Source: Pseudomonas sp. WJP1 (GTDB lineage Bacteria; Pseudomonadota; Gammaproteobacteria; Pseudomonadales; Pseudomonadaceae). Taken from it: DNA of 64,000 nt. Both the position numbers and the translations under genes were made by a program. The stretch is taken from the NCBI RefSeq assembly GCF_028471945.1, contig NZ_CP110128.1, forward strand, positions 2,158,501-2,222,500, in the 5' to 3' direction. The notes beneath the pieces were generated by a model, which saw only the letters and a program-made list of their open reading frames with translations, was not told the DNA's origin and made no database searches. Every line of letters starts with the position of its first letter. The first letter of the stretch is position 1. Positions 42,678 to 59,065 of this stretch are shown piece after piece.

Positions 42678-43721
42678 TCAGGTATTTGATAGTTGATGAC
42701 GCCGTTGCGGATTTCCTGGCTTGCCGACCAATTGCTTGCGCCAATCCCGTGGGCTCTGTCCGTACCAACGGTGGAACGCCCGGGTGAAAGCGCTTTGGTC
42801 GCTGTAGCCGAGCAGGTCGGCCAATTGCGAAATCTTGATGGTCGAGTCTTGCAGGTAGTGGCAAGCCATGGCCTGGCGAGCATCGGACAGCAAGTCCTGG
42901 AAGGTGAATCCTTCGAGTTCCAGTTGGCGCTGGAGCTTGCGCGTGCTCAGGCGCATGAACGCGGCGATGTACTCGATATTGGCGCGGCCTTCGGGCATGA
43001 AGTTTCGAATCAGTTGCTGGACCAGCGCCGGCAATTCTTCGGCGGACATCTGCGTCAGGTGGTCGAGGTGCTTGCGAATCAGCCGGTGCAAGGCCGGGTC
43101 TGCCGACTCCAGCGGCGTATCGAGCGAACTTGCGTCGAACATCAGGCCGTTGTAGGTCGTATTGAAGCTGGGGACCATGCCGATGAGGCGACGGAATTGC
43201 CCGGGTTCGGCAACCGGCGTGTGCCGGAACAACATCGCCTGGGGTTGCCAGCGTTTGCCCAGCAACGTGCGCAGCAACTGCACGCCGACGCCCAGGGCCA
43301 GTTCCGATCCCTGGCGGTAGCCGGGCATTGACGTGTCGGAGATGGTGTAGGACAGGATCGCGTGCTTGCCCTGTTCGTCGAGGGTGATTTTCGCGGCGCC
43401 GGAATGGATGTGGTAGTAGGCGGTCAGACCGGTCAGTGCTTCGCGCACATCCCTGGCATTGCGAAACAGGTAGAGCAGGGGGCCGAAAATGCTCACGCCC
43501 TGGGCCAGGCCGTACTGCATGGCGAACAGGCGGTTCTGCGATTCCATTTCGCACAGCACCAGCAGGTCGAGCATTTTGCTGTAGGAAATCAGGCTGTCGG
43601 GAAGCTCTTCCAGGTCCGGCGGCAAGCCGGCGCGTTTCAGCATTTTTTCCGGATTTAGCCCTTGTTTTGCCGCGAATTCAGAGAAGTTTGCCAGCCCCGC
43701 AGCGCGAACGAAGTCGATCAT
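42678..43721 (-). CDS. AraC-family regulator (Arabinose_bd/OruR type)
   Basis: 347 residues. An N-terminal sensor domain of the AraC arabinose-binding-like type (SISYSKMLDLLVLCEMESQNRLFAMQYGL) precedes a C-terminal double HTH: YIAAFMRLSTRKLQRQLELEGFTFQDLLSDARQAMACHYL then ISQLADLLGYSDQSAFTRAFHRWYGQSPRDWR. It is divergent from the cupin gene, 184 nt apart. A 13-bp motif at 43816-43828 recurs before the DUF1302 gene, suggesting that it activates both operons. The ligand is probably a catabolic intermediate of the encoded pathway. Confidence 0.9.
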   Translation of the reverse strand: MIDFVRAAGLANFSEFAAKQGLNPEKMLKRAGLPPDLEELPDSLISYSKMLDLLVLCEMESQNRLFAMQYGLAQGVSIFGPLLYLFRNARDVREALTGLTAYYHIHSGAAKITLDEQGKHAILSYTISDTSMPGYRQGSELALGVGVQLLRTLLGKRWQPQAMLFRHTPVAEPGQFRRLIGMVPSFNTTYNGLMFDASSLDTPLESADPALHRLIRKHLDHLTQMSAEELPALVQQLIRNFMPEGRANIEYIAAFMRLSTRKLQRQLELEGFTFQDLLSDARQAMACHYLQDSTIKISQLADLLGYSDQSAFTRAFHRWYGQSPRDWRKQLVGKPGNPQRRHQLSNT

Positions 43722-43815
43722 TTTGAGCCCATTTATTGTTTTTGTAGGTCATGCAAGGCCTGGAAAAACAGCTGTCGGCTCCCCCTCGCTTTGTCGCGTA
43801 TTGAAAGATTGCAGG

Positions 43816-43828
43816 CGTCAAATGTCAA
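43816..43828 (+). promoter_or_regulatory. 13-bp motif shared with the DUF1302 promoter (candidate AraC site)
   Basis: CGTCAAATGTCAA, 77 bp upstream of the cupin start. It contains a tandem repeat (GTCAAAT GTCAAAT with the next base), a typical AraC-family half-site layout. The identical 13-mer lies at 49331-49343. Confidence 0.55.
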
Positions 43829-43905
43829 ATTTTCACCAAGCGCCTGATGCAGCATGTGGACTGATCCGATCGTGATCCGAAGCCAATCATCAGGAGAACA
43901 AGAAA

Positions 43906-44427
43906 ATGGCGATGCCCCATCAAGTCCACGAACACAAAGACCTGTTGACCCTGAACACCAACGAGCTGCCGATGTACAAAGACGCCTTGCCGGGCGTGCC
44001 GGGCGTTGACGTGCAGCCACTGTTTCTCGACCCAAGCGCCGGCATCTGGGTGCTGCGCGTGGTGTTCCAGCCGGGCGTAGTCCTGCCGCGTCACTATCAC
44101 ACCGGCACCGTGCACTTTTTCACCCTCACCGGCCGATGGAACTACGTCGAGTATCCGGACCAGCCGCAGACGGCCGGCAGCTACCTGTTCGAGCCGGGTG
44201 GTTCGATCCACCAGTTCATGGTCCCGACCACCAACACCGAGCCGACCGATACCGTCATGGTGGTCCACGGCGCCAATGTGAATTTCGACAGCGAAGGCAA
44301 CTACCTCGGCCTGATGGACGCCAGCGACATCATGCATCTGTTCGATCACCTGGTGCGCGAACGCGGCCTGGAACCTGCGAAGTACATCACGCCACGCGCC
44401 GCCGACTACACCACGCGCGCGCGATAA
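43906..44427 (+). CDS. Cupin protein of the 2,4'-dihydroxyacetophenone dioxygenase family
   Basis: 173 residues. Single cupin barrel with metal ligands in RHYHTGTVHFFTLTGRWNYVE (motif 1) and a second motif around GSIHQF. The family includes a C-C bond-cleaving iron dioxygenase of hydroxyacetophenone degradation. First gene of a four-gene unit with an epimerase, an alcohol dehydrogenase and a sulfatase. Oxidative cleavage of a hydroxyketone intermediate is a reasonable but unproved role. Confidence 0.78.
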   Translation: MAMPHQVHEHKDLLTLNTNELPMYKDALPGVPGVDVQPLFLDPSAGIWVLRVVFQPGVVLPRHYHTGTVHFFTLTGRWNYVEYPDQPQTAGSYLFEPGGSIHQFMVPTTNTEPTDTVMVVHGANVNFDSEGNYLGLMDASDIMHLFDHLVRERGLEPAKYITPRAADYTTRAR

Positions 44428-44541
44428 CCACCCTGGTCACCTGCCTTGGGCGGGTGACACTTCTTATCCGGTCGTTCCCACCTGCACGGTATTCAGCGCG
44501 GTTGGCGCCTGTGCGCGTGGGTCATTGCCCAAGGACATTTT

Positions 44542-45564
44542 ATGACTGACGTCACGATGCCCACCGGTAGCGCGGGACAAACCCCCGAGGTTCCACGCTC
44601 CGTTTTCATCACCGGGGCCAGCGGTTTCATCGGCCGTGCCCTGGCGGCGCGCTACAAGGCGCTCGGCGCGCAAGTACGCGGCATGGACCTGATTGCCGAC
44701 CCGGCCAACGACATCGTGGCCGGTGACCTGACCCGGCCGAAAGGCTGGGCCGGGCACGCCGCCGGTTGCGAGCTGTTCATCAACACCGCCGCGGTGGTGT
44801 CGCTCGCCGCGTCCTGGAAGCTGTACCGCGACGTCTCGGTGCAAGGCGTACGCAACTGCCTGGATGTCGCCATTGCCGGTGGCGCCAAGCGGTTCGTGCA
44901 GTTTTCCTCGATCGCCGCCCTCGGCTGGGACTACCAGGGCGAGGCCGATGAGCGCAGCGACGTGGTGATCGGCAATCACTATCGCTATGGCGTGGCCAAG
45001 GGCGCGAGCGAGCACGTGGTGCTGGCGGCGCATGCGGCGGGGGAGATCGATTGCACCATCGTGCGTCCGGGCGATGTCTATGGCCCAGGTTCGCGAGCCT
45101 GGCTCAGTGAGCCGATGAAGATGGCCAAGGCCGGCGCGCTGATCCTGCCCAATGGCGGCAAGGGCATCTTCACCCCGGTGTACATCGACGACCTGCTCGA
45201 TGGCGTCATGTTGGCCGCCGGTTTGCCTCAAGCCATCGGCCAGATCTTCCATATCAGCGCCAGCCATGCCGTCAGCTGCAAGACGTTTTTCTCCAGCCAC
45301 TGGCGCTGGGCCGGGCGCAACGGCACGCCACACACCTTGCCACTGTGCGTGGCAGTGGCAATCACCCATGTGCTCTGGACGGTGAATCGCCTGCTCAAGA
45401 AGCAGGGCGAAGTCGCGCCGGACACCATGTACATGTTCGCCCGCAAAGGTGGCGTGTCCATCGCCAAGGCTCAACAGGTGCTCGGTTACCAACCCAAGGT
45501 CGATCTGGAGGAAGGCTTGCGCCGCTCCGAAGCCTGGTTGCGTGAAAGCGGCCAGATCAGCTGA
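44542..45564 (+). CDS. NAD-dependent epimerase/dehydratase, 3-beta-hydroxysteroid-dehydrogenase-like
   Basis: 340 residues, extended SDR. NAD motif TGASGFIGRALA near residue 24-35, Ser in FVQFSSIAALG, and catalytic YxxxK as YGVAK (HYRYGVAKG). The INTAAVVSLAASWKLYRDVSVQGVRNCLDVA region and RPGDVYGPGSR match the 3-beta-HSD-like branch. It would oxidise a secondary alcohol of a hydrophobic molecule. 114 nt after the cupin gene and 50 nt before the alcohol dehydrogenase gene. Confidence 0.83.
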   Translation: MTDVTMPTGSAGQTPEVPRSVFITGASGFIGRALAARYKALGAQVRGMDLIADPANDIVAGDLTRPKGWAGHAAGCELFINTAAVVSLAASWKLYRDVSVQGVRNCLDVAIAGGAKRFVQFSSIAALGWDYQGEADERSDVVIGNHYRYGVAKGASEHVVLAAHAAGEIDCTIVRPGDVYGPGSRAWLSEPMKMAKAGALILPNGGKGIFTPVYIDDLLDGVMLAAGLPQAIGQIFHISASHAVSCKTFFSSHWRWAGRNGTPHTLPLCVAVAITHVLWTVNRLLKKQGEVAPDTMYMFARKGGVSIAKAQQVLGYQPKVDLEEGLRRSEAWLRESGQIS

Positions 45565-45614
45565 CGGCCAGGCCCAGGTCAATCCCACCCCGATAATGAC
45601 AAGAGAGACGCCCC

Positions 45615-46694
45615 ATGAAAGCGGTAGTGATGCGCGACAAACAACTGCTGGTCGACACGCTCAAGGCGCCAACGCCTGCGGCCGGCGAAGTGCTGGTCAA
45701 GACCCTGGCCTGCGGCATCTGTGGCTCGGACTTGCACATGTTCCACCATTGCGAGCATGTGCTCGGCAACTTCAAGCGCAGCGGTATTCCGGTCGACTTC
45801 GACGCCGGCCAGGACGTGGTGTTCGGCCACGAGTTCTGTGGCGAAATCCTCGACCATGGACCGGGCAGCGACAAACAGCTCAAGGTCGGCACGCGTGTGT
45901 GTTCGATGCCGTTCATCTTCAACCGCAACGGCTTTGAGCATGTCGGTTTTTCCAATGGTTATCCGGGCGGCTATGGCGAGCAGATGCTGCTTGCCGAAGG
46001 CTTGCTGGTGCCGGTGCCGGGTGATTTACCGGCGCACCTGGCGGCGCTGACAGAGCCGATGTCGGTTGCCGTTCACGCGGTCAACCGGGCCCGGCTGGAA
46101 GGTGATGAAGTGCCGATCGTGATCGGTTGCGGCCCGATTGGCCTGGCCATGATCGCCGTGCTCAAGTCCCGTGGCATAGGGCCGGTGGTGGCTTCCGACT
46201 TCTCGCCGAAACGTCGTGCACTGGCGGAAAAAATGGGCGCCGACCTGGTGGTCAATCCCGCCGAGCAGTCCCCGTACCAGTCCTGGGTCGAGGTGGCGGC
46301 GCCGGCCGGTTATGACATCAAGGGCCCGCAGGCCATGTACGGCCTGGGGCCGCAGCCCAAGCCCTGCGTGATCTTCGAATGCGTCGGCATTCCGGGCCTG
46401 ATCCAGCAAGTGTTGCAGAGCGCACCGCCGCGCAGCCGCCTGATGGTGGTGGGTGTGTGCATGGAGTCGGACCGGATTGAACCGATGGTCGGCATCGCCA
46501 AGGAAATGAACATCAGCTTCGCCTATGGCTACAACGGCGAAGAGTTCGCGCGGACCTTGTACGACCTGGCCGAGCAGAAGTTCGACGCCTCGCCGCTGAT
46601 CACCTCGACCGTCGGGCTCGATGGCGTGGCCGAGGCGTTCGCGGCGCTGAGCAAACCCGATGAACAAGCCAAGGTGATGATCACGTTCGAATGA
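45615..46694 (+). CDS. Medium-chain zinc-type alcohol dehydrogenase
   Basis: 359 residues. Catalytic-zinc segment CGICGSDLHMFHH, GHEFCGEILDHG, and the NAD fold VIGCGPIGLAMIAVLKS. The four-Cys structural-zinc lobe of typical zinc ADHs is missing: the corresponding stretch reads PFIFNRNGFEHVGFSNGYPGGYGEQ, without a CxxCxxC pattern. It acts in the cytoplasm on an unknown alcohol, probably the product of sulfatase action or of the epimerase step. 42 nt before the sulfatase gene. Confidence 0.85.
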   Translation: MKAVVMRDKQLLVDTLKAPTPAAGEVLVKTLACGICGSDLHMFHHCEHVLGNFKRSGIPVDFDAGQDVVFGHEFCGEILDHGPGSDKQLKVGTRVCSMPFIFNRNGFEHVGFSNGYPGGYGEQMLLAEGLLVPVPGDLPAHLAALTEPMSVAVHAVNRARLEGDEVPIVIGCGPIGLAMIAVLKSRGIGPVVASDFSPKRRALAEKMGADLVVNPAEQSPYQSWVEVAAPAGYDIKGPQAMYGLGPQPKPCVIFECVGIPGLIQQVLQSAPPRSRLMVVGVCMESDRIEPMVGIAKEMNISFAYGYNGEEFARTLYDLAEQKFDASPLITSTVGLDGVAEAFAALSKPDEQAKVMITFE

Positions 46695-46736
46695 CCCGCC
46701 AGGGTCGTTCGTTGCAGGTAATTGCGGGAAGCAAAC

Positions 46737-48338
46737 ATGATGAAATTCAAGATCTGTAAAGGCCTGCTGTGGCCCCTGATGGCGGCTGTGTCACTCATCG
46801 TGACGAGCGCTTCGGTGGCGGCGGCCGACAAGAAACCCAACATCCTGGTGATCTGGGGCGACGACATCGGCTGGCAGAACGTCAGTGCCTACGGCATGGG
46901 CACCATGGGCTACACCACGCCGAGCATCGACAGCATCGGCGCCGAAGGCATCCGTTTCACCGATCACTACGGACAACCGTCCTGCACGGCGGGACGCGCC
47001 GCGTTCATCACCGGCCAGTATCCGATTCGTTCCGGGATGACCACGGTCGGCCAGCCGGGGGACAAACTGGGCTTGCAGGCGGCTTCACCGAGCCTGGCCG
47101 AGGTGTTGAAGAAGGCCGGGTATGCCACCGGCCAGTTTGGCAAGAACCACCTGGGCGATCGCAACGAGCATTTGCCCACGGTCCATGGCTTCGATGAATT
47201 CTTCGGCAACCTGTACCACCTCAATACCCAGGAAGAATCCGAGCAGCGTGATTTCCAGAATTTCGCCAAGGCCTATTCCGGGAGCCTTGAAGCCTATGAG
47301 GGCAAGTTCGGTACCCGGGGCGTCCTGCATTCCCATGCCAGCAATACCGATGACGCCACGCAAGATCCGCGCTTCGGCCGGGTCGGCAAACAGACCATCG
47401 AGGACACCGGTCCGCTGACCCAGAAGCGCATGGAGATGTTCGATGAAGAGGAGGTCGCGACCAAGGCCATGGGCTTCATGAAGCAAGCCAAGGCGGCGGA
47501 CAAACCGTTCTTCGTCTGGATGAACACCTCGCGCATGCACCTCTACACGCGCCTCAATGACAAATGGCGCTATGCCGCGGAGAAGTACAGCTCCGAAGGC
47601 GACCTGTATGGCTCAGGCATGCTGCAGCACGATCATGACGTCGGCCAGATTCTCGATTTCCTCAAGGACAACGGCCTGGATGAGAACACCATCGTCTGGT
47701 ACTCCACCGACAACGGCCCCGAGCATTCCTCCTGGCCGCACGGTGGGACGACGCCGTTTCGCAGCGAGAAAATGTCCACCTACGAGGGTGGTGTGCGGGT
47801 CATCTCGATGCTGCGTTGGCCTGGTGTGATCAAGCCTGGCCAGGTGCTCAACGGTATCCAGGCGCACATGGACATGTTCACCAGCCTGGCGGCCGCGGCC
47901 GGCGTCAAGGATGTCGCTGCCGACCTCAAGCAGGAGAAAAAGCAGTACATCGACGGGGTCAACAACCTGCCTTACTGGAAGGGCGAAGCCAAGGACTCGG
48001 CACGCAACAGCCTGTTTTACTATTACGAAAGCAAGTTGACCGCCGTCCGCCTGGGGCCCTGGAAATTCCACCTGTCGACCAAGGAAGACTATTACGCCAA
48101 CCTGGTGCCGCGCACCGTGCCGCTGGTGTTCAACCTGCGCATGGACCCGTTCGAGAGCTACGACAACAAGGATTCCTACGGGCATCTGCTGCAAAAGGTC
48201 TCGTGGCTGATTCAGCCCGTGGGCGAAATCATCGGCGCGCACTTGAAGACCCTCGCCGAGTACCCGCCGGTGCAAGGCGGAAAAAGCTACGACATGTCGA
48301 ATCTGGTGCAGGATTTCCTCAATCGCGCCAAGCAATGA
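46737..48338 (+). CDS. Exported arylsulfatase-type sulfatase (CxAxR class)
   Basis: 533 residues from ATG 46737. Signal peptide [16 protein letters not shown]. Sulfatase core [14 protein letters not shown] (metal Asp pair) and the formylglycine site Cys83-Thr-Ala-Gly-Arg87 in [26 protein letters not shown]. The usual pattern is CxPxR; Ala replaces Pro, a variant known for some FGE substrates. It would remove sulfate from an ester outside the cytoplasm after the Cys is converted to formylglycine by FGE; no FGE gene is in the window. Last gene of the cupin operon; followed by repeats. Confidence 0.88.
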
Positions 48339-48352
48339 ACCAGGCGAAACCC

Positions 48353-48377
48353 TGTAGGAGCGAGCCTGTCGCGAAGG
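48353..48377 (+). repeat. Single REP element
   Basis: GTAGGAGCGAGCCTGTCGCG, a REP-type palindrome 14 nt after the sulfatase stop. It abuts copy 2 of the dispersed repeat. Confidence 0.7.
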
Positions 48378-48398
48378 TCAGGCGACCTGTTTTTGGAC

Positions 48399-48715
48399 GG
48401 TGTACATATCCGTTCCTGCGGTAACGGCCACTTATGGTTTCGCCCTTACGGCGAGTCACTTGGAAGAGCCCCAAGTAACCAAGGGCTCTTGCCCCTGGCG
48501 TTCGGTGGCTCGCTATGGCTCGCCATGCCCTCGCTCCGGTCCTGCTCCGTGGGTCGCCGCGATGGGCCATCCATGGCCCAGCGCGGCTAAACCGGCATCC
48601 ATGCCGGTTTACCCACTGCGCAGAACCTCCACTCGGCCTCTCGATGGGGCAAGAAAATCAAAAGCCAGATCAATATCAAACGCAAAAGCGAGGCGGCCTT
48701 AAAGCCGACCTGATC
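48399..48715 (+). repeat. Dispersed intergenic repeat, copy 2
   Basis: Same order of conserved blocks as the copy at 10093, starting GTGTACATATCCGTTCC and ending at the CGGCCTTAAAGCCGACCTGA block. Oriented opposite to copy 3, with a REPIN between. Small frames inside it are not genes. Confidence 0.85.
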
Positions 48716-48732
48716 GGGAGCCGTACGCAATT

Positions 48733-48828
48733 CCCTGTAGGAGCCAGGCTTGCCGGCGAACCAGGCGCTGCGGTGTACCTGTTGTACCGCGTTATCGTTC
48801 TTCGCCGGCAAGCCTGGCTCCTACAGGG
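48733..48828. repeat. REPIN at the centre of the inverted repeat pair
   Basis: Perfectly complementary 28-bp arms (48733-48760 and 48801-48828) carrying the REP core GTAGGAGCCAGGCTTGCCGG, separated by 40 bp. 96 bp in total, a typical REPIN size. Confidence 0.85.
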
Positions 48829-48845
48829 GATCAGGTACACCCGTA

Positions 48846-49150
48846 AAAGTCAGGTCGGCTTTAAGGCCGCCTCGCTTTTGTTTTTGATCTGGGCGCCCCG
48901 TTAAACCACGATGGCCAAACGCAGGCATTGCGCAGTGGGGAAACCGGCAGGACGCCGGTTTAGCCGCGCTGGGCCAAGGATGGCCCATCGCGGCGACCCA
49001 CGGAGCAATGCCTTCGTTACGGCATGCCGAGCCCTAGCGAGGCACCGAGTGGTGGGGCAAGAGCGCTTGGTTACTTGGCGCTTTTCCAAGTAACCCGCTG
49101 TAAAAGCGGAACCAATAGTGGCCGTTATCGCAGCAATGGATATGTACACC
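48846..49150 (-). repeat. Dispersed intergenic repeat, copy 3 (inverted)
   Basis: Reverse orientation of copies 1 and 2: begins with the AGGTCGGCTTTAAGGCCGCC block and ends ATGGATATGTACACC. Its blocks are closer to copy 1 (AAACCGGCAGGACGCCGG) than to adjacent copy 2, so it is probably a separate insertion rather than a local duplication. Confidence 0.82.
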
Positions 49151-49232
49151 GCGCACGAGCATCCCGACGATGGAGGTAGTCACAGGTTGACGGACAGCCG
49201 ACCCGGGTTTGCAGATTGATCCAATCCAGTAC

Positions 49233-49272
49233 AGGCCCGCAGTCCATTTCCTTTGGCCTGCGGGCCTTTTTC
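49233..49272 (+). terminator. Strong rho-independent terminator upstream of DUF1302
   Basis: 10-bp perfect stem AGGCCCGCAG/CTGCGGGCCT followed by TTTTT. No gene ends nearby on this strand; the closest is the sulfatase, about 890 bp upstream across the repeats. It may be that operon's original terminator, moved away by repeat insertion. Confidence 0.85.
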
Positions 49273-49330
49273 GTTCCGTTGCCCGCTCGGCAGTCTTTTT
49301 CGCCGCACGCGTGTAAAGCCAAATTCCTGT

Positions 49331-49343
49331 CGTCAAATGTCAA
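49331..49343 (+). promoter_or_regulatory. 13-bp motif shared with the cupin promoter (candidate AraC site)
   Basis: CGTCAAATGTCAA, identical to 43816-43828 and in the same orientation to its gene, 109 bp upstream of the DUF1302 start and just downstream of the terminator. Confidence 0.55.
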
Positions 49344-49452
49344 GAATGGCTTCTCTGACTTCCCATAATCATCTCAACAATAAAGCTCTGCCGACGTGCC
49401 GTGGACACCGCCACACACGCCGGCAAAAGGGCGATTCCCATAGAGGTCAGCG

Positions 49453-51291
49453 ATGCCGCATAACAACAATAAGCTTGTGTCTCGTTTGAAACCGTTGGCG
49501 ATTGCAGTGTCTGTGTCTGCCGCCGCCAGTGCACACGCCGTCACCTTCGACGTCGGTGAAGCGTGGCAAGGGGAGTGGAACACCACGCTGTCGGTCGGTT
49601 CGCAATGGCGGGCCGAAGACGCCGACAACAAATTGTATTCCGGCGCCAACGGGCGCTCGGTCGGCAAGCAGGGCGGGCTTGCCGGGCGGATTGATCCGGG
49701 CAACCTGAACTACGACAAGGGCGACCGTTTTTCCAGCATTGGCAAGTTCGTCACCGATGTCTCGCTGCGCAACGGCGACATGGGTGGGCTGGTGCGGGTC
49801 AAGGGTTGGTATGACCAAGCGCTGGAAGACGAAGACGTCAACCTGGGCAGCATCTCCAACGGCTACAAGAAGGACTCGCCGCTGTCGGATCGCGGTTATG
49901 AGGACCTGCAAAAGTACAAGGGCATCTACCTGCTCGACGCCTACGTCTACAACACCTTCTACATCGATGAATCACCGCTGCAGGTGCGCCTGGGTCGCCA
50001 GGTGGTGAACTGGGGTGAAAGCCTCTACATCCAGGGCCTGAACCAGATCAACCCGCTGGACGTTCCGGCCTTGCGTCGCCCGGGCACCGAACTCAAGGAA
50101 GCGCTGATTCCACTGTGGATGGGCTACTTCAACCTTGGCTTGCCGGCGGGCATTTCCATGGAAGGTTTCTATCAGCTCAAGTACGAAAATACGGCAGTGG
50201 AAGGGTGCGGCCATTACTGGTCGGTGACTGAAACCGCGATTGCCCGGGATGGGGGCAGTTGTGATGTCGGCATCACCCTGGGCAATCCCAATACGTTGAC
50301 CTCGGCCCAGGCGATCAACGCCGGCGCCTACTTGCCCTTGAACAAAGGCAAGGACCCCAAGGACAGCGGCCAATGGGGCCTGGCCTTCCGCATTCCGGTG
50401 GACGCGCTGGATGGCGAGCTGGGCATTTACTACATGAACTACCACTCGCGCACGCCGTACCTGGCCATTCGCAACAGCGCGCCAAAAGTGCCTGATGAGT
50501 TCCCCAACGCTCCGGCCGGCGGTGCATTGCGCGGCATCGGTCCGAGCTGGGAGTACCCGGAAGACATCCGCCTGTACGGCATCAGTTTCACCACCACGGT
50601 CAAAGGCTGGTCGCTGGCCGGTGAGCTGAGCCACTCGCCCAACCAGCCCGTGCAACTCAACGGTGCCGACCTGCTCAACGGCGCGCTGGGCGGTGTGGGT
50701 CCGCTGGCGCAACTGCAGCAGTCGGTGGTCGGTCAGCGCGTGGCCTTCACCGAAGGCTGGAACCGCTTCGAGAAAACCCAGCTGCAATTCAACGCCGTGA
50801 ACCTGATCCCCAACGTGCTGGGTGCAGAGAACCTGACGGTGGTCGGTGAAGTGGGCTTCCAGTGGAACAACGTGCCCGACTTCAAGGACAACGAGCGTTA
50901 CGGTCGCGCCTTCATCTTCGGCTTCGGTGCCTCGCCGAGCACCGGTGCCCTGGGGTCGCTGGGCAACACCCAACCCGATGGCGCGAAGAACGATGGCTAC
51001 ATCACCGATTTCTCGTGGGGTTATCGCCTGCGTGGACAACTGGACTACTCCAACTTCCTTGGCACCTCGGTGACCGCGTCGCCGTTCGTGTTCCTCGGTC
51101 AGGACGTGGAAGGGGTGTCCATGGACGGGCAGTTCAACGAAGGCCGCCTCACCGAAAGTGTCGGCGTGAGCTTCGACTACAACAAGCAGCACAAGGTCGA
51201 CCTGAGCTACGTCACGTTCGACAACGCCGCTGAATACGACCCGCTGCGCGACCACGATTTCTTCGCCGCCAGTTACAGCTACAGCTTCTAA
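49453..51291 (+). CDS. DUF1302 outer-membrane-type protein
   Basis: 612 residues with a signal peptide (ALAVSVSAAASAHA region). The mature protein is beta-rich with WNTTLSVGSQWRAED, LDAYVYNTFYIDESPLQVRLGRQVVNWGES and a terminal aromatic residue (SYSYSF), consistent with DUF1302 outer-membrane barrels. The family regularly precedes DUF1329, YCF48-like and MMPL genes, as here. Probably a channel or binding protein for a hydrophobic compound. First gene of the second operon. Confidence 0.87.
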   Translation: MPHNNNKLVSRLKPLAIAVSVSAAASAHAVTFDVGEAWQGEWNTTLSVGSQWRAEDADNKLYSGANGRSVGKQGGLAGRIDPGNLNYDKGDRFSSIGKFVTDVSLRNGDMGGLVRVKGWYDQALEDEDVNLGSISNGYKKDSPLSDRGYEDLQKYKGIYLLDAYVYNTFYIDESPLQVRLGRQVVNWGESLYIQGLNQINPLDVPALRRPGTELKEALIPLWMGYFNLGLPAGISMEGFYQLKYENTAVEGCGHYWSVTETAIARDGGSCDVGITLGNPNTLTSAQAINAGAYLPLNKGKDPKDSGQWGLAFRIPVDALDGELGIYYMNYHSRTPYLAIRNSAPKVPDEFPNAPAGGALRGIGPSWEYPEDIRLYGISFTTTVKGWSLAGELSHSPNQPVQLNGADLLNGALGGVGPLAQLQQSVVGQRVAFTEGWNRFEKTQLQFNAVNLIPNVLGAENLTVVGEVGFQWNNVPDFKDNERYGRAFIFGFGASPSTGALGSLGNTQPDGAKNDGYITDFSWGYRLRGQLDYSNFLGTSVTASPFVFLGQDVEGVSMDGQFNEGRLTESVGVSFDYNKQHKVDLSYVTFDNAAEYDPLRDHDFFAASYSYSF

Positions 51292-51313: not shown

Positions 51314-52669
51314 ATGAAAATATCGAACCGGGGCGTTCTCCTGACCGCCCTTGCCAGTGCAGTGATGTTCAGCCTCAGTGGTCCGGCCAGCGCCAAGATC
51401 AGCGCCGACGAAGCCGCGAAACTGGGTTCCGACCTGACGCCGCTGGGTGGCGAAATGAAAGGCAACGCCGACGGTACTATCCCGGCCTACACCGGTGGCC
51501 TTGCACAACCGCCGGCCGGTTGGTCGGCGGACAAGGGCTACACCGACCCGTTCGCCGCGGAAAAACCGCTGTTCACCATCACCGCGCAGAACCTTGGCCA
51601 ATACAAGGACAAGGTCACCCCCGGCATGCAGGCGTTGTTCGCCAAATACCCGAACTTCCAGATGCCCGTGTACCCGACGCATCGCACCGCGACCGTGCCG
51701 GCCGGCATCGCCGCCAAGGTCAAGGCTGAAGCGGTCAATGCCGAACTCAATGGTTTTGGCCTGGCCAACCTCAATGGCACGACCACGCCGTTCCCGATCC
51801 CGAAGAACGGCCTCGAAGCGATCTGGAACCACACCGTGCGCTACCTCGGTGGTGGCCTGGAACGCACCTACAGCTCGTTCCCGGTTCGCCCCAGCGGTGA
51901 CTTCTACGACGTGAAGGTGCTCGAGAGCCGGGTGTTCGACACCAACATGGACAAGTCGTCGCCCAACCGGCTGCTCAACTACACCGCGCGCTTCCTGTCG
52001 CCAGCCACCCTGGCCGGCACCATTCAACTGGTCCAGGAACCCATCGACCAGGTCGCGGAAGTGCGTTCGGCCTGGATCTACAACGTCGGCCAGCGCCGTG
52101 TGCGGCGTGCCCCGGACCTGGCCTACGACAACGTCAACGACGGTACCGAAGGCCTGCGCGTGACCGACGATTTCGACGCCTTCAACGGGGCTCCGGATCG
52201 CTTTGACTGGAAGCTGGTGGGCAAGAAGGAAATGTACGTTGCCTACAACGACTACAAGCTGGGCAACAAACAGATCCCGTACAAGGACATCCTGACCCCC
52301 GGCACGCCCAATCCGGACCTGATGCGCTATGAACTGCACCGCGTCTGGGTCGTGGAGGCCACCTTGCGCCCGGACGCCAAGCACGTCTACGGCAAGCGCT
52401 CCTTCTACCTGGACGAGGACTCCTGGTCGGTACTGGCCACTGATGCCTACGACACCCGTGGTTCGTTGTGGCGTGTCGGCGTGCATCCGCTGATCCAGTA
52501 CTACGACGCCCAGGTGCCTTGGTACGCGGCCAACATCTGGCACGACCTGAGCAATGGCAGTTACTACATGGCCGGCTTGTCCAACCAGGAAAAATCCCCC
52601 TGGAAGTTCGGTGCGAAGGGTCGCTTCGTCGACTTCCAGGCCGACGCCCTGCGCCGTCTCGGTCGCTGA
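51314..52669 (+). CDS. DUF1329 exported protein (LolA-like fold family)
   Basis: 451 residues. Signal peptide LLTALASAVMFSLSGPASA. The family markers are present: LGSDLTPLGGEMKGNADGTIPAYTGGL near residue 40, and WVVEATLRPDAKHVYGKRSFYLDEDSWSVLATDAYD toward the C-terminus. DUF1329 proteins are predicted periplasmic lipid-carrier-like proteins. It is 22 nt after DUF1302, so one transcript and probably one envelope complex. Confidence 0.88.
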   Translation: MKISNRGVLLTALASAVMFSLSGPASAKISADEAAKLGSDLTPLGGEMKGNADGTIPAYTGGLAQPPAGWSADKGYTDPFAAEKPLFTITAQNLGQYKDKVTPGMQALFAKYPNFQMPVYPTHRTATVPAGIAAKVKAEAVNAELNGFGLANLNGTTTPFPIPKNGLEAIWNHTVRYLGGGLERTYSSFPVRPSGDFYDVKVLESRVFDTNMDKSSPNRLLNYTARFLSPATLAGTIQLVQEPIDQVAEVRSAWIYNVGQRRVRRAPDLAYDNVNDGTEGLRVTDDFDAFNGAPDRFDWKLVGKKEMYVAYNDYKLGNKQIPYKDILTPGTPNPDLMRYELHRVWVVEATLRPDAKHVYGKRSFYLDEDSWSVLATDAYDTRGSLWRVGVHPLIQYYDAQVPWYAANIWHDLSNGSYYMAGLSNQEKSPWKFGAKGRFVDFQADALRRLGR

Positions 52670-52739
52670 GTCCAGGACCCCGCGCGTGGCGTGAATCGCG
52701 CGCGGGGGCATTCGATTTCTCTCTTGGTGGATACCCCTT

Positions 52740-53705
52740 ATGTTCTCTCATCGCCTGCCTTCACTGGCCCTGGCGCTCTGGGCGCTCGCTGCCTTGCCAG
52801 CGGCATTCGCCCAGGCGCCGGCACTCGACTATCCCATCGCCGCCGACAAAGTGCTGCTGCTCGACCTGGAAAAGGCCGGTGAGCGCCTGGTCGCCGTCGG
52901 CGAGCGTGGCGTGGTGTTGTATTCCGATGACCACGGGCAGGGCTGGCACAGCCTGCGTACCCCGGTGACGCGAACCCTGACGGCGGTGGCGTTTGCCTCC
53001 GCGCAAGAAGGCGCGGCAGTGGGGCATGGCGGTGCGCTGCTGCACACCGGCGATGGCGGGCTGCACTGGCAGGCAGTCGAGGCCGATACCGGCGGTGAGT
53101 CGCTGCTGGGCGTGGCAGCCATGGGTGACCGGCGCATGGTGGCCTGGGGCGCATTCGGGGTGTATCTGGAATCCGACGATGGCGGCGCGAGTTGGCAGCG
53201 GCGGATGATATTGGGTGAAGATTTCGATCGGCACATCGCCCAGGTCCTCAAGGCCCAAGGGCAGTGGCTGCTGGTGGGAGAAAGCGGCACGCTGGCCCGT
53301 TCGCTGGATCAGGGGCAGACCTGGGAAGCCATGGAAAGCCCTTACCAGGGCAGTTTCTTCGGCGCCTTGCAAACGCGCGCCGGCACGCTGCTGGCCTATG
53401 GCATGCGCGGCAATCTCTGGCGCTCGGTGGACCAGGGGCAGAGCTGGAGCAAGATCGAAACGGCAACCACCCTGGCCATCAATGGCAGCCTGCAACAAGA
53501 CAACGGGCGCATTCTCGCCTTGGGTAACGGCGGCATCGTGCTGGCCAGTGACGATGACGGTGCGACGTTCCACGCCATCAACGGTTCGAGCAAGGCCAGC
53601 CTCGCGCAAGGCGTGCAACTGGGCAATGGCCAGGTCCTGGCCGTGGGCGATCATGGCGTCACCTCACTGGCCAAGCTCGTCATCGCCAAGGGAGCGAAGT
53701 CATGA
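52740..53705 (+). CDS. YCF48/BNR-repeat beta-propeller protein, exported
   Basis: 321 residues with a signal peptide (LALALWALAALPAAFA). About six beta-propeller repeats with the DxGxxW pattern: SDDHGQGWHSL, HTGDGGLHWQAV, ESDDGGASWQRR, SLDQGQTWEAM, SVDQGQSWSKI, SDDDGATFHAI. It resembles YCF48/HCF136 assembly factors and the propeller genes found beside MMPL transporters. It overlaps the transporter gene by 4 nt (ATGA), which implies coupled synthesis and a probable physical partnership. Confidence 0.88.
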   Translation: MFSHRLPSLALALWALAALPAAFAQAPALDYPIAADKVLLLDLEKAGERLVAVGERGVVLYSDDHGQGWHSLRTPVTRTLTAVAFASAQEGAAVGHGGALLHTGDGGLHWQAVEADTGGESLLGVAAMGDRRMVAWGAFGVYLESDDGGASWQRRMILGEDFDRHIAQVLKAQGQWLLVGESGTLARSLDQGQTWEAMESPYQGSFFGALQTRAGTLLAYGMRGNLWRSVDQGQSWSKIETATTLAINGSLQQDNGRILALGNGGIVLASDDDGATFHAINGSSKASLAQGVQLGNGQVLAVGDHGVTSLAKLVIAKGAKS

Positions 53706-56131
53706 CTCAGCAAGAACTCATCCGCGACGCCGACCAGCTCGATCGCCAGGACTTTTCCCGGGGCCTGGTGGGCAAGGTCTCGTACTGGATCTTCCACCAG
53801 CGCAAGCCGCTGCTGGCCCTGTTCATTCTGCTGACCCTCGGCCTTGGTTACAGCGCCTCCAACCTCAAGGTGGAAGCCGGATTCTTCAAGATGATCCCGC
53901 TGCACCATGAGTACATGGGCACCTTCCTCAAGTATCAAAAAGACTTCGGCGGGGCCAACAAGATCCTGATCGCAGTGAAGAACAACAAGGGTGAAATCTT
54001 CTCACCGGGGTCCATGTCGGTGTTGCGCAAGGTCTCGGACGAGGTGTTCTTCCTCAACGGTGTGGAGCGCAGTTCGGTGACGTCGCTGTTCACCTCCAAC
54101 GTGCGCTACACGGAAGTGGTGGAGGAGGGCTTCACCGGCGGCAACCTGGTGGCGTCCGACTATGCCGGGCGGCCCGAACAGTTGGCCCAGGTGCGCGAGC
54201 GCACGCTCAAGTCGGACTGGATCGGGCGCATCGTGTCCAATGACCTGTCCTCGGCCATGGTGGTCGCCACGTTGCAAGAAAAAGACCCCGTCACCGGTGA
54301 GCGGCTGGACCTGCAAAACGTCGCGGCGCAGCTGGAAAAAATCCGCCAGGACAACCAGGGCGGCGACGTCAGCATCCACATCATCGGCTTTGCCAAATCC
54401 ATTGGCGATATCGCTGAAGGCGCTTCGGGCGTGCTGCTGTTTTTCGTGGTTGCCTTTGTGATTACGGCCGCACTGCTTTACTGGTACTGCGGTTCGCTGA
54501 TGCTGACCGGTTGGGCGCTGATTTGTGCCGTGGTGCCGGTGGTGTGGCTGCTGGGCATCTTGCCGCTGATCGGCCTGGGGCTGGACCCGATGTCGATTCT
54601 GGTGCCGTTCCTGATCTTCTCCATCGGCGTGTCCCATGCGGTGCAGATGACCAACGCCTGGAAGCTGGAAACCCTCGCCGGGGCCGACGGCGTCACCGCC
54701 TCGCGCAACTGCTTTCAGAAGCTGTTCATCCCCGGCGCCGTGGCGCTGTTGGCCAACGCCCTGGGCTTCATGGTGATTGCGCTGGTGGACATCGAGATGG
54801 TCCGCGAGCTGGCGATCACGGCCACGCTCGGTGTCTCGGTAATGATCATCACCAACAAGATGCTGTTGCCGATCCTGCTGTCCTTCATGCGCCTGTCAGC
54901 AGCGGACGCGCACAAACTGCGCGGCAAGGAAACCCTGGGCAGCGGCTTGTGGGAGCGCCTGGGCCGGCTGGCGACGCGTCGCGGCAGTCTGGTCGCCTTG
55001 TCGGTGGGCGCGCTGTTGATGGTGGGTGGTCTGTACATCGCCCGGGACCTGCACGTCGGCGACCTCGGGGCCGGCGTGCCGGAACTTCGGGAAAATTCGC
55101 GCTACAACCAGGACGTGGCGATGATCACCCGCCACTTCGCAACCGGTGTCGATCTGCTGCAGGTCATCGCCAAGGCCAAGGGTGATGAAACCCCCTGCGT
55201 GAAGCGCGAGGTGCTGGCGCCCCTGGAAGAGTTCGAACTCTACCTGCGCCAGGACGACGGCGTCGCTTCGGTGCGCAGCCTGACGGCGTTCGTCAATAAC
55301 ATCACCCAGGCCTATGCCGAAACTGATCTGAAGTGGCATGTGCTGCCGGAACTGGTTCCACAGATCGCCCAGGGCATCGGCTTTGCCACCCGCAGCGGCA
55401 CCGAGTACATGAACAGCGCCTGCAACGCCATTCCGGTATCGATCTACACCAAGGATCACCAGGCCGGCACCATCAGTGAGCTGATGACCCGGATCAAGGC
55501 CTTCAAGGCCGCCTACGACAGCGACGACATCACCTTTGAACTGGCCTCGGGCAACGTCGGCGTGATGGCGGCGACCAACGAAGTGGTGCATGCCGCCGAC
55601 AAGGTCGTCAACAGCGCACTGTTTGCCTCGGTGGCGTTGTTGTGCCTGTGGATGTTCCGTTCCTGGCGCGTGACCCTGTGCATCATCCTGCCGCTGGCGC
55701 TGGTCACCGTGTTGTGCAATGCGCTGATGGCGACCCTGGGCATCGGTCTCAAGGTGAACACCTTGCCCGTGGTGGCGCTGGGTGTCGGCGTCGGCGTCGA
55801 CTATGGGATCTACCTGTTCGAGCGGATCAAGCACGAGATGCATGAGCGCAACCTGAGCCTGGAGGATGCCTTCGTCGAGGCCCTCAAGCAGCGCGGCACC
55901 GCGTCGGTCTTCACGGCGGTGACCATGACCTTGTCGGTGGCCACCTGGGCTTTCTCGACGCTGAAGTTCCAGGCGGACATGGGCATCCTGCTGGCGTTCA
56001 TGTTCCTGGTGAACATGTTCGGGGCGATCCTGTTGTTGCCGGCGCTGGCGGCGTGGTTGTTGCAGCCAAGGCACAAGGCAGGCGGTTTGACGGAAGCGAA
56101 CCCTGTGCCTAGGGTTCTTGCAGACATTTAG
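53702..56131 (+). CDS. MMPL/RND-superfamily transporter
   Basis: 809 residues with twelve membrane helices in two halves, each after a large periplasmic loop: helix 1 about residues 35-53 (ALFILLTLGLGYSAS), then FLIFSIGVSHAVQMTNAW in the first half and GVGVGVDYGIYLFERIKHEM in the second, the paired sequences of MMPL/HpnN-type proteins. It has no adaptor or TolC partner here; instead it is coupled to a propeller, DUF1329 and DUF1302. Likely moves a lipid-like compound across or out of the inner membrane. Direction unknown. Confidence 0.9.
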   Translation: MTQQELIRDADQLDRQDFSRGLVGKVSYWIFHQRKPLLALFILLTLGLGYSASNLKVEAGFFKMIPLHHEYMGTFLKYQKDFGGANKILIAVKNNKGEIFSPGSMSVLRKVSDEVFFLNGVERSSVTSLFTSNVRYTEVVEEGFTGGNLVASDYAGRPEQLAQVRERTLKSDWIGRIVSNDLSSAMVVATLQEKDPVTGERLDLQNVAAQLEKIRQDNQGGDVSIHIIGFAKSIGDIAEGASGVLLFFVVAFVITAALLYWYCGSLMLTGWALICAVVPVVWLLGILPLIGLGLDPMSILVPFLIFSIGVSHAVQMTNAWKLETLAGADGVTASRNCFQKLFIPGAVALLANALGFMVIALVDIEMVRELAITATLGVSVMIITNKMLLPILLSFMRLSAADAHKLRGKETLGSGLWERLGRLATRRGSLVALSVGALLMVGGLYIARDLHVGDLGAGVPELRENSRYNQDVAMITRHFATGVDLLQVIAKAKGDETPCVKREVLAPLEEFELYLRQDDGVASVRSLTAFVNNITQAYAETDLKWHVLPELVPQIAQGIGFATRSGTEYMNSACNAIPVSIYTKDHQAGTISELMTRIKAFKAAYDSDDITFELASGNVGVMAATNEVVHAADKVVNSALFASVALLCLWMFRSWRVTLCIILPLALVTVLCNALMATLGIGLKVNTLPVVALGVGVGVDYGIYLFERIKHEMHERNLSLEDAFVEALKQRGTASVFTAVTMTLSVATWAFSTLKFQADMGILLAFMFLVNMFGAILLLPALAAWLLQPRHKAGGLTEANPVPRVLADI

Positions 56132-56183
56132 CATCAGGCGGGTGCTTCAGGCCGTCGCACCCCCTCGTGAAAGGACACTCGCC

Positions 56184-57596
56184 ATGAATGCCTCACGCAA
56201 ACTCGTATTTTGTATCCTCCCGCTGTGTGTCGCACTCGGCACCGCAATGCACGCCCAGGCCAGCACGCCGGATTTACTGCTGACCACACCCGCAACACCC
56301 GATGTGGTTGAGAAGGGTATGCACACCGATGGCTACAGCCTCGCGATCTCGGCTTACAACTGGGGCTATCCCTTGGTTCGCATGGAGCGGGTGGCGCGTG
56401 AGTACACCAAGGTTCCATCACCCAAGCCCGATACCAGCTATCGCGCAGGGCTGAACCGGATCGGCTGGGCGACTTCGTTGGCATCGCCGTCCGCCAAGGA
56501 CATGCCCACCGCCAACAATGACACTTACTACATGAGTGCGGTGCTGGATCTCACCGAGCCCTACGTGTTGACCGTGCCCGATACCCACGACCGTTATTAC
56601 GTGGTCGATGTATTCAACATGTGGCAGGAACTTGAGCACTACGTCGGCCGACGCACGACCGGCACCCAGGCCGGGAAGTTCGTGCTGGTGCCGCCGGGCT
56701 GGAAGGGTGAACTGCCCAAGGACGCCAAGCGCCTTGACGTCTCGACCCAAAAAATCTGGCTGTGGGGGCGAATTCACGTCAAGCAGGGCGAAGATGTCGC
56801 GCCGATCCTGGCACTGCAAAAGCAGTTCAGCGTCGAGCCATTGAGTGGCAAGGCGCATACCGATCAGACGCTGGCCGCGTTGCCGCAGACAGGTGATGAT
56901 CCGTTGGGTTTCTTCACGGAGCTGGCCGCGGCGCTCAAGGACAATCCGGTCAAACCGGCTGACGCCGCACTGTTTGCCCAGTTCGCCCGAATCGGCCTGA
57001 CGGACAAGGGCTTTTCACCCGACAAGCTGAACCCGGCCACACGCAAGGGCCTGGAAGACGGTTTGAAAGATGCGCCGTACGTGGCGATTGCGTCGCTGGC
57101 CAGCACATCGTCGATTCGCAACGGCTGGAACTGGGTGACCGGCCTCGACAGCTTCGGCTACAACTACCCGCTGCGCGCCATGGTGGCCGGGCCGTATCTC
57201 GGCGGCCAGGGTGAACATGAGGCGATGTACCCGATCCGCTTCACCGACAGCAAGAACCAAGCGCTGACGGGTGCCAATCATTACGAGGTCAAACTGGCTT
57301 CAGCGCCGCCGGTGAATGCCTTCTGGTCGCTGACCATGTACGACGCCAGCGACAAGATGCTGGTCGACAACGAGATCGGTCGCTACAAGGTCGGCACCGA
57401 TACGCCAGGATTGAAAGTCGCCGCTGACGGTTCGATCACCATTCCCATTTCCCATGAAAAACCGCATGGCGAGAATGCCGCCAACTGGTTGCCGGCACCT
57501 GAAGGCGGGTTCTACGTGCTGTTGCGCCTGTACCAGCCTTCGGAGGACGTGCTGTCGGGCAAGTGGCAGTTACCGCAACTGAACAAGGTCAATTGA
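56184..57596 (+). CDS. DUF1254/DUF1214 exported protein A
   Basis: 470 residues from ATG 56184. Signal peptide FCILPLCVALGTAMHAQA. N-terminal DUF1254 (AYNWGYPLVRMERVAREYT; NNDTYYMSAVLDLTEPYVLTVPDTHDRYYVVDVFNMWQ) and C-terminal DUF1214 (NAFWSLTMYDASDKMLVDNEIGRY). Periplasmic, biochemical function unknown. 53 nt after the transporter gene and 18 nt before its paralogue. Confidence 0.88.
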   Translation: MNASRKLVFCILPLCVALGTAMHAQASTPDLLLTTPATPDVVEKGMHTDGYSLAISAYNWGYPLVRMERVAREYTKVPSPKPDTSYRAGLNRIGWATSLASPSAKDMPTANNDTYYMSAVLDLTEPYVLTVPDTHDRYYVVDVFNMWQELEHYVGRRTTGTQAGKFVLVPPGWKGELPKDAKRLDVSTQKIWLWGRIHVKQGEDVAPILALQKQFSVEPLSGKAHTDQTLAALPQTGDDPLGFFTELAAALKDNPVKPADAALFAQFARIGLTDKGFSPDKLNPATRKGLEDGLKDAPYVAIASLASTSSIRNGWNWVTGLDSFGYNYPLRAMVAGPYLGGQGEHEAMYPIRFTDSKNQALTGANHYEVKLASAPPVNAFWSLTMYDASDKMLVDNEIGRYKVGTDTPGLKVAADGSITIPISHEKPHGENAANWLPAPEGGFYVLLRLYQPSEDVLSGKWQLPQLNKVN

Positions 57597-57613
57597 ACGC
57601 CAGGGGATAGGGC

Positions 57614-59065
57614 ATGAAGACGTGTACTGCGTTCGTCGCGGGCGTAAGCCTGCTGACGGTCATGGCGGGTGCAATGGCCGAAACATTGCCGCAGGGTGGG
57701 CAACCGCCTGCGGACGCCAAGGCATCGGTATCCGACTTCGACTATCAGATCAAATACCAGCGTGCTTTCGAGGCGGTGTTATGGGGAATTCCCGCCAGCG
57801 CCATCTACAGCTTTCGGCGCGCCGCTGTCGATGAGCTTGGGCTCAAGGACAATGACATCATTGCCTATTCGTCCACGGCCACGCCCAAACTCGAAGCGAT
57901 CACCGCCAACAGCACTACCCCCTATATCTCGGCCTTCACCGATTTACGCAAAGGCCCCGTGGTGCTGGAAGTGCCGGTTGCCGGGGCAGAGGGCAGTGTC
58001 TACGGCCAGGTCGTCGATGCCTGGCAACTGACCATTGCCGATGTCGGCCCCTCGGGCGTGGACAAGGGCAAAGGCGGCAAGCTGCTCTTCACGCCACCGG
58101 GTTATCAAGGTGAAATTCCCGAGGGCTACATTCACATCGCTTCGCCCAACTATCGGATTGCCCTGGCCTTTCGTTCTGTTCCCGCCCCGGGCAAGAGCGT
58201 GGCAGATGCCTATCAGTACGCCCAGAAGCTTCGCATGTATTACCTGTCCGAGACTGCAAGCCCGCCGAAGCAACGTTTTTTCGACCCGCTCAACCAGCGT
58301 TATCCGACCCTGCCGCTCTATGACGAGCGTTTTTTTGATGACCTGCATGCCATCGTCAGCGTTGAACCGGTCAAACCGCAGGACAAGGTCATGATGGGCA
58401 TGCTGGCGTCGCTTGGCATCGAGCAAGGCAAACCCTTCACGCCTGACGCAACCACCAAACGAGCCATGCGCCAGGCCGCCATCGATGCCTGGTACTACCT
58501 GCAACAGTGGTTCGACAACCTCCCCAAGGACAGGCTGTATTGGCCGGATCGGCACTACGCGTCATTGCTGATGACCGATGCCAACAAGACGTTCTCGTTC
58601 GTCGATGACAAACGCGTCGACTTGATCAACCGCGCCGCCGAGTATTTCTGGTGCACCTACATGCCCAAGACCCTGAGCGATACGCCTGCAACGCAGTACA
58701 TGATGGCCATGGCCGACAAGGATGGAAAACTGCTGGAGGCGGGCAAGCTGTACAAACTGGATATTCCGGCTCAGATGCCGGTCAAGCAGTTTTGGGCATT
58801 GACAGTGTATGACCGAGCCACGATGTCGTTCATCTACAGCGATAGCAATCGCACCACCTTGTCCTCCTACGACCTGGACAAGATGAAAAAGAACGCCGAT
58901 GGCGGAGTGTCGATCTACGTGGGGCCCAAGGCTCCGGCAGGGCTGGAATCAAACTGGATTCCAACGGCTGGGAAACGCCCTTTGCCGGCCATGCGGTTCT
59001 ATGGGCCGACCGAAGAAATGAACGACAAGACCTTCAAGTTGGCGGATTTTGAATCGGTCAACTAA
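57614..59065 (+). CDS. DUF1254/DUF1214 exported protein B
   Basis: 483 residues; signal peptide AGVSLLTVMAGAMA. Paralogous to the preceding gene but divergent: AFEAVLWGIPASAIYSFRRAAVDELG replaces the first signature, then NSTTPYISAFTDLRKGPVVLEVP, and the C-terminal FWALTVYDRATMSFIYSDSNRTTLSSYD. Last gene of the operon. Two non-identical copies suggest a heteromer or two related ligands. Followed by a strong hairpin. Confidence 0.88.
   Translation: MKTCTAFVAGVSLLTVMAGAMAETLPQGGQPPADAKASVSDFDYQIKYQRAFEAVLWGIPASAIYSFRRAAVDELGLKDNDIIAYSSTATPKLEAITANSTTPYISAFTDLRKGPVVLEVPVAGAEGSVYGQVVDAWQLTIADVGPSGVDKGKGGKLLFTPPGYQGEIPEGYIHIASPNYRIALAFRSVPAPGKSVADAYQYAQKLRMYYLSETASPPKQRFFDPLNQRYPTLPLYDERFFDDLHAIVSVEPVKPQDKVMMGMLASLGIEQGKPFTPDATTKRAMRQAAIDAWYYLQQWFDNLPKDRLYWPDRHYASLLMTDANKTFSFVDDKRVDLINRAAEYFWCTYMPKTLSDTPATQYMMAMADKDGKLLEAGKLYKLDIPAQMPVKQFWALTVYDRATMSFIYSDSNRTTLSSYDLDKMKKNADGGVSIYVGPKAPAGLESNWIPTAGKRPLPAMRFYGPTEEMNDKTFKLADFESVN

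Follow-up and report, generated by a model that had tools for sequence, protein, structure and literature searches.

We analyzed a 64-kb part (64,000 nucleotides, here called the window) of the single-contig genome of Pseudomonas sp. WJP1 (7,004,124 bases), in which a divergent AraC-type regulator gene precedes two co-directional gene sets. The upstream half encodes a cupin, a short-chain dehydrogenase/reductase (SDR), an alcohol dehydrogenase (ADH) and a sulfatase, and the downstream half encodes a four-gene envelope cassette, ameABCD, followed by two DUF1254 proteins. We regard it as moderately probable that these genes form one AraC regulon for a sulfated hydrophobic alcohol, comprising its desulfation, oxidation and perhaps cleavage together with expulsion of a toxic hydrophobe by AmeABCD. 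The strongest result of the analysis is a putative operator shared by the two halves. The word CGTCAAATGTCAA occurs exactly twice in the 7.0-Mb genome, upstream of the cupin and ameA starts at distances of 90 and 122 nt, respectively, and the reversed-pattern control gave 0 occurrences. The features of the cluster, in window coordinates, are given below.

42678..43721, minus strand: AraC-type regulator with Arabinose_bd and HTH_18 domains (PF12625, PF12833), divergent from the cupin operon (open reading frame and Pfam)
43812..43830, plus strand: putative operator upstream of the cupin gene, containing CGTCAAATGTCAA at 43816-43828 (motif comparison)
43906..44427, plus strand: Cupin_7 protein, closest characterized relative 2,4'-dihydroxyacetophenone dioxygenase (Pfam, structure-sequence match)
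44542..45564, plus strand: extended SDR with Epimerase and 3Beta_HSD matches (Pfam)
45615..46694, plus strand: zinc-type medium-chain dehydrogenase (the ADH; ADH_N and ADH_zinc_N), closest solved structure (R,R)-butanediol dehydrogenase
46722..48338, plus strand: sulfatase (Sulfatase and Sulfatase_C) with a CTAGR motif; ATG 46737 is the likelier start; signal peptide by eye
48398..49151, no strand: dispersed inverted-repeat element separating the halves, not a member of the system (repeat search)
49327..49345, plus strand: putative operator upstream of ameA, containing CGTCAAATGTCAA at 49331-49343 (motif comparison)
49453..51291, plus strand: AmeA-type DUF1302 protein (Pfam, relatives)
51314..52669, plus strand: AmeB-type DUF1329 protein (Pfam, relatives)
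52740..53705, plus strand: AmeC-type YCF48/BNR propeller, PSII_BNR (Pfam, relatives)
53702..56131, plus strand: AmeD-type MMPL/HAE3 permease with MMPL and Sterol-sensing matches (Pfam, genome scan, tree)
56118..57596, plus strand: DUF1254/DUF1214 protein; ATG 56184 is the likelier start (Pfam)
57614..59065, plus strand: second DUF1254/DUF1214 protein (Pfam)

An earlier reading of this stretch, the original prediction, had listed ten open reading frames and a divergent AraC gene. All are present at these positions, and its domain calls hold.

Putative shared operator and regulator

Dinucleotide shuffling of the cupin and ameA promoters produced a shared word of this length in 1 of 1000 trials. 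When a matrix was built from 23 half-sites of relatives, with the window excluded, the two window sites ranked 1 and 2 of 127,964 positions, scoring 23.7 and 21.7 bits, and the next position scored 11.7. The putative operator precedes each of the two transcription units and is rare elsewhere in the genome.

In relatives with the AraC2 regulator, the majority of cupin promoters have a pair of direct repeats, spaced by 21 nt and positioned at about -110 and -89. Among 20 genomes searched, this tandem form, with at most one mismatch, was found at 15 sites distributed over 10 genomes; the control gave 1. Nine sites precede cupin genes (in eight genomes), two precede sulfatase genes and one precedes ameA; one, with one mismatch, lies before a detached SDR gene in P. 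vranovensis, and one lies before the ADH homolog of P. segetis. The fifteenth is also in P. segetis, past the 3' end of the ADH homolog, and 14 of the 15 precede genes of the system. One-mismatch forms occur before ameA at the same distance in loci L052, L054 and L156. Among relatives whose sulfatase has its own promoter, the same operator was found in 2 of 9 usable sulfatase upstream regions. This count excludes two rows (SULF2 in L050 and L051) whose upstream region is an artefact of a gene extending past the edge of the locus, and is 4 of 11 with those rows kept. A1302 in L157 was excluded from the ameA count for the same reason. Strict cores were absent upstream of the DUF1329 (0/15), propeller (0/14), MMPL (0/13) and DUF1254 genes (0/7, 0/7 and 0/3).

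The AraC-type regulator of the window is 51% identical to an AraC protein in a related P. vranovensis locus and 49-53% identical to the cupin-side AraC proteins of genomes G042, G148 and G408. These closest relatives match it at 48-49% in the ligand domain and 54-61% in the helix-turn-helix (HTH) domain; those of G042, G148 and G408 adjoin a cupin gene, and the fourth, of P. vranovensis, is in another locus. We consider it likely that one AraC regulator controls both promoters, its binding to the two sites being predicted.

Co-occurrence of the two halves in related genomes

The original prediction held that the two halves belong together, and on this point it is upheld, as they co-occur in relatives and share the motif before both promoters. 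The result that it had named as refuting, a complete lack of co-occurrence in other genomes, was thus not obtained. Open reading frames in relatives' loci were called with a simple heuristic caller, and rows with query coverage below 50% (relative-locus table) or below 45% (genus-neighbourhood and promoter tables) were dropped. In six relative loci (P. vancouverensis, P. laurylsulfativorans, two of P. alkylphenolica, PB106 and GM84) the cupin-SDR-ADH genes lie directly upstream of ameABCD, in the order cupin (70-73% identity), SDR (75-79%), ADH (74-77%), an AraC gene on the opposite strand and ameABCD (MMPL 83-85%). Pseudomonas sp. C2B4 contains both halves at 93-99% on two contigs that end in repeat-element sequence. 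An SDR ortholog was found in 8 of 9 named genomes with an AmeD of at least 82% identity and in 0 of 7 genomes with an AmeD of 65-72%, the latter hand-picked from a longer scan list (best 80 of 301). P. vranovensis retains only the cupin beside the pump, with the SDR elsewhere in the genome, and P. segetis encodes a cupin (52%) and an ADH (46%) with no SDR ortholog.

In an even sample of 397 genomes of the genus, 12 genomes have the SDR ortholog and 6 have a close AmeD; 5 genomes have both (Fisher p 6e-8, relatedness ignored). Among the seven SDR genomes lacking a close AmeD, G259 and G290 have the SDR beside an ABCD cassette of another lineage, and the SDR of G042, G148, G408 and G267 has a sulfatase no more than 4 kb away; in G323 neither an ABCD cassette nor a nearby sulfatase was found in the surrounding 20 kb. 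Overall, 6 of the 12 SDR genomes encode a sulfatase no more than 4 kb from the SDR. The chance expectation, calculated from the five full-length sulfatase matches of the own genome, is approximately 0.6% for a random site, relatedness ignored.

Looser versions of the cluster were also observed. P. carbonaria contains DUF1302-DUF1329 near a sulfatase (54%), a cupin (36%), an SDR (28%) and DUF1254 proteins (61% and 54%), and a second P. vranovensis locus encodes a sulfatase (42%), a DUF1254 protein (62%) and the AraC protein (51%), then DUF1302, DUF1329 and a propeller. Genome G267 has the order cupin-SDR-sulfatase-ADH, then one gene, then a dehydrogenase E1 gene that would be consistent with acyloin chemistry. 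The P. alkylphenolica cluster (L050) continues to an SDR, a FadB-type protein, two acyl-CoA dehydrogenases and a second sulfatase, an extension that would fit further oxidation of an alkyl chain.

The SDR is infrequent in a wider class sample, with matches at E 1e-40 or better in 4 of 369 genomes, the own genome included. Outside the genus, the cupin adjoins the SDR in G450 and in two Pseudoalteromonas plasmid regions (two of the three listed). No cupin was found within approximately 12 kb in an Agrobacterium plasmid or within 1.5 kb around the SDR in G419 and G524. In the Pseudoalteromonas plasmids (L166 and L167, 9890-13540) an AraC gene is divergent from the SDR-cupin pair (37% and 56%) and is backed by an AMP-binding gene and a further SDR gene; no sulfatase or pump lies near the pair in the 25 kb shown. 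The plasmid searches, in which four regions were opened, gave no named substrate.

Organization of the cluster

The original prediction had described about 15 kb of co-directional genes. These do not form one continuous operon: the gap of 1,114 nt between the sulfatase and DUF1302 genes is occupied by the inverted-repeat element, whose arms of 99 and 98 nt are 86% complementary. Because this element splits the gene set, two transcripts are likely. At least 40 genomic copies of a 301-nt piece of it were found at 90-100% identity, its own place included (40 of 162 candidates were scored), and many copies have a second, inverted copy a few hundred nucleotides away. An ATGA overlap at 53702-53705 joins the propeller and MMPL genes. 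From the translations, the listed TTG starts of the sulfatase and first DUF1254 genes look less likely than ATG 46737 and ATG 56184. A promoter scan of 42-60 kb found no sigma-70 pair (4.1 expected), and the corresponding scan for terminator-like sites found 21 (15.7 expected).

Downstream, at 59157-62884 on the minus strand, the window encodes a 779-aa Big_9/cadherin-like protein whose frame overlaps that of a 463-aa protein with no Pfam match.

Identity of the transport cassette

Judged by gene order and similarity, the DUF1302-DUF1329-YCF48/COG4447-MMPL set is the ameABCD cassette of Castellaniella defragrans and is not new. The original prediction had presented it as an undescribed transport system, a claim that we rejected when the literature and a genome scan led to the named cassette (PMC6394551), which is found in aromatic regulons as well (PMC6449761). 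In C. defragrans, AmeA is a DUF1302 protein, AmeB a DUF1329 protein, AmeC a COG4447 protein and AmeD an HAE3 permease, and the genes sit in a monoterpene island (PMC6394551). The same study describes a deletion of ameABCD that decreased monoterpene tolerance and slightly increased the Nile Red load of cells treated with carbonyl cyanide m-chlorophenyl hydrazone, with real-time Nile Red efflux nearly the same in mutant and wild type (PMC6394551). The claim of export is modest because of that nearly unchanged real-time efflux.

The window encodes DUF1302, DUF1329, COG4447/YCF48 and HAE3 permease genes in the AmeABCD order, and its permease falls within the AmeD lineage of HAE3. A scan for the MMPL protein in an 84,980-species collection gave 301 confirmed stretches, of which the best 80 were kept. 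These include nine loci of Pseudomonas at 82-97% and then a group at 64-72% that includes Thauera terpenica (66%) and C. defragrans (65%). In a tree of 92 permeases built by a quick method, the window AmeD belongs to an 11-row Pseudomonas group (support of 100 in the Shimodaira-Hasegawa-like approximate likelihood ratio test, SH-aLRT) nested in a 35-row clade (SH-aLRT 100) that also contains the proteins of C. defragrans and T. terpenica. The LolA_like model of Pfam scores the DUF1329 protein below its cut-off.

Related proteins have been described in the context of aromatic compounds. In one study, nanopods contain DUF1302 and DUF1329 proteins and their formation is induced by phenanthrene (PMC3110197). 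Another places COG4447/COG1033/PF07044/DUF1302 cassettes in phenol-type AphS/AphR/AphT regulons of Betaproteobacteria and suggests that they may help the cell to tolerate toxic aromatics (PMC6449761). Of 149 genus genomes, 146 encode one or more MMPL relatives matching at E 1e-100 or better.

In the own genome the envelope cassette is heavily multiplied, with ten DUF1302 genes and six full-length MMPL relatives of this type. Its closest AmeD paralog (52%; G000:C1:4855001-4890000, loci L129 and L130) has as neighbours a lipid-transfer-type thiolase, a further DUF1302 gene and an extradiol dioxygenase of the HsaC/biphenyl-diol type, which may together form a separate ring-degradation cluster.

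Predicted enzymes of the catabolic half

The original prediction had proposed sulfate-ester cleavage, alcohol oxidation and possible C-C cleavage; these activities are borne out at the level of homology and are accordingly worded here as putative. The sulfatase has the sulfatase fold and a C-x-P/A-x-R motif (CTAGR), and matches the nearest solved S1-type sulfatase, 7aj0, over residues 33-518 with the motif cysteine aligned. CxPxR is the commoner S1 consensus and alanine is accepted at the third place; the window protein differs from the solved S1-type enzymes in having CxAxR, and scores under the cut-off in each of the four NCBIfam sulfatase models that match. An N-terminal export signal was read by eye. 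The genome also encodes a member of the formylglycine-generating-enzyme family (PF03781, 199 bits), a family match with putative activity.

The best solved match of the ADH is (R,R)-butanediol dehydrogenase (6ie0), nearly full length but at E 3e-38 only, and the protein does not reach the cut-off of any named NCBIfam model. Enzymes of this type convert a vicinal diol to a hydroxyketone. The ADH motif residues are retained in 12 of 12 orthologs. The cupin aligns over its core with 2,4'-dihydroxyacetophenone dioxygenase (5bpx, 4p9g), an enzyme that cleaves a hydroxyketone, and keeps the His-x-His, Glu and later His, which we take to be the metal ligands in the solved enzyme; these positions are retained in 18 of 18 orthologs examined. 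This similarity is weak (E 1.5e-12), the uncharacterized cupin 3cjx being far closer (E 3e-46), and we do not count the window cupin among the 2,4'-dihydroxyacetophenone dioxygenases.

The SDR can be assigned to its superfamily with the three glycines of GxxGxxG and the Tyr and Lys of YxxxK kept in 16 of 16 orthologs and the Ser in 15 of 16. Its best family is Epimerase (91.1 bits) rather than 3Beta_HSD (54.5 bits, cut-off 22), and no named model is reached at cut-off. Because the 3-beta-HSD models are not its best match, a specific steroid pathway was not adopted, and sterol is kept as one hydrophobe among others.

A sulfatase paralog (77%) is encoded elsewhere in the own genome (L128, 7195-15827; sulfatase at G000:C1 3720051), in a row of genes for a LacI regulator, a histidinol-dehydrogenase family protein, a 4HBT thioesterase, the sulfatase and a thiolase. 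Past the thiolase are an MBL gene on the opposite strand and then a DUF1329 gene. The LacI, dehydrogenase, thioesterase and sulfatase genes of this row recur near the P. alkylphenolica ame cluster.

Proposed function and alternative explanations

In the regulon that we propose, the exported sulfatase would free an alcohol from its sulfate ester as the first step. The ADH, being closest to butanediol dehydrogenase, would oxidize a vicinal diol to a hydroxyketone, and the cupin, whose nearest characterized relative is a hydroxyketone-cleaving dioxygenase, may cleave that product. AmeABCD would export the hydrophobe and limit its accumulation, a direction taken from C. defragrans. Desulfation, hydroxyketone formation and C-C cleavage are proposed because of the sulfatase, ADH and cupin homologies and the neighbours in G267 and L050; every enzymatic step is one that we infer. 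A more specific version, held tentatively and with some doubt, is a dedicated pathway for sulfated lipophilic vicinal diols, in which periplasmic desulfation would be followed by acyloin formation and an oxygen-dependent C-C split by the cupin, and the regulon-matched AmeABCD would return escaped hydrophobe to the outside.

Several observations weigh against the proposed single regulon. It was drawn from sequence alone, and the repeat element lies between the halves, with a terminator-like hairpin at 44436-44458 between the cupin and SDR genes. Of the cupin promoters only 10 of 17 contain a strict core, and of the ameA promoters only 7 of 14 (7 of 15 with the artefact row kept), counts that include the window and the near-identical C2B4, and the cupin promoters of G042, G148 and G408 lack the strict core. 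The strict tandem 21-nt operator has 0 matches in the own genome, each promoter there having one strong half-site. The matrix ranking is not fully independent because the core was first seen in the window, and AraC2, the source of the matrix sites, matches the window regulator at 39-43% in the HTH and only 26-29% in the ligand domain. A close AmeD is missing from 7 of the 12 SDR genomes, and the p values ignore shared ancestry.

The repeat element and those seven genomes would also fit two unrelated operons that are neighbours by chance. This we consider very improbable, given the shared motif and conserved adjacency, the SDR beside an other-lineage ABCD cassette in two of the seven (G259 and G290), and the detached P. 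vranovensis SDR gene that retains the operator with one mismatch. A role in sulfur scavenging, with the sulfatase supplying sulfate and its neighbours only disposing of the freed alcohol, gains from the sulfatase being the sole sulfate-releasing gene of the set and from the second sulfatase (77%) elsewhere in the genome. We judge it improbable, as the regulator is of the ligand-binding AraC type and the catabolic-gene operator was found in 2 of the 9 usable sulfatase upstream regions of relatives.

The principal competitor to the proposed regulon with export is import, as in the original prediction, whereby the DUF1302, DUF1329, propeller and MMPL proteins would bring in a sulfated molecule resembling a sterol or terpenoid, which the cell would then desulfate and use as a carbon source. 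The cassette adjoins catabolic genes here and in relatives, and deletion of DUF1329 is cited as impairing growth on phenanthrene (PMC13101534); the near-identical real-time Nile Red efflux of ame mutant and wild type would also be compatible with it (PMC6394551). The export signal of the sulfatase, as read by eye, argues the other way, since desulfation would then precede any inner-membrane uptake. The authors of PMC6449761 interpret the cassette as possibly a means of dealing with toxic aromatics, and the only direct work on the closest characterized relative points modestly to export and tolerance, with lowered tolerance and raised dye load on deletion of AmeABCD (PMC6394551). We consequently regard import as unlikely.

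Comparison with known systems

Openly licensed PMC literature yielded no report of a sulfatase and shared operator joined to AmeABCD, and no openly licensed PMC paper was found that pairs DUF1302 with MMPL or dihydroxyacetophenone dioxygenase with a sulfatase. The present analysis gives a common, poorly understood envelope cassette a place in a candidate regulon defined by a predicted operator and a few enzymes, and provides the DUF1254 family with a functional neighbourhood. With such a candidate regulon defined, the substrate and the disputed direction of transport become testable by induction and deletion.

The AmeABCD system of C. defragrans 65Phen comprises the same four proteins in the same order as the window. 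Identities to its locus in strain DSM 12141 (L074, taken as the ame locus by gene order, not by published accession letters) are 65% for AmeD, 41% for AmeA, 52% for AmeB and 43% for AmeC. The two differ in that the window cassette is preceded by the cupin-SDR-ADH-sulfatase genes and followed by two DUF1254 proteins, whereas the C. defragrans genome contains no SDR ortholog (best match 31%) and its best sulfatase match is partial. The cassettes of the AphS/AphR/AphT regulons resemble the window in placing the same four families under a catabolic regulator, but belong to phenol-type aromatic pathways, and the text available names no sulfatase (PMC6449761). If the more specific diol pathway is correct, the window would contain the first HAE3 tetrapartite pump tied by one operator to a sulfatase.

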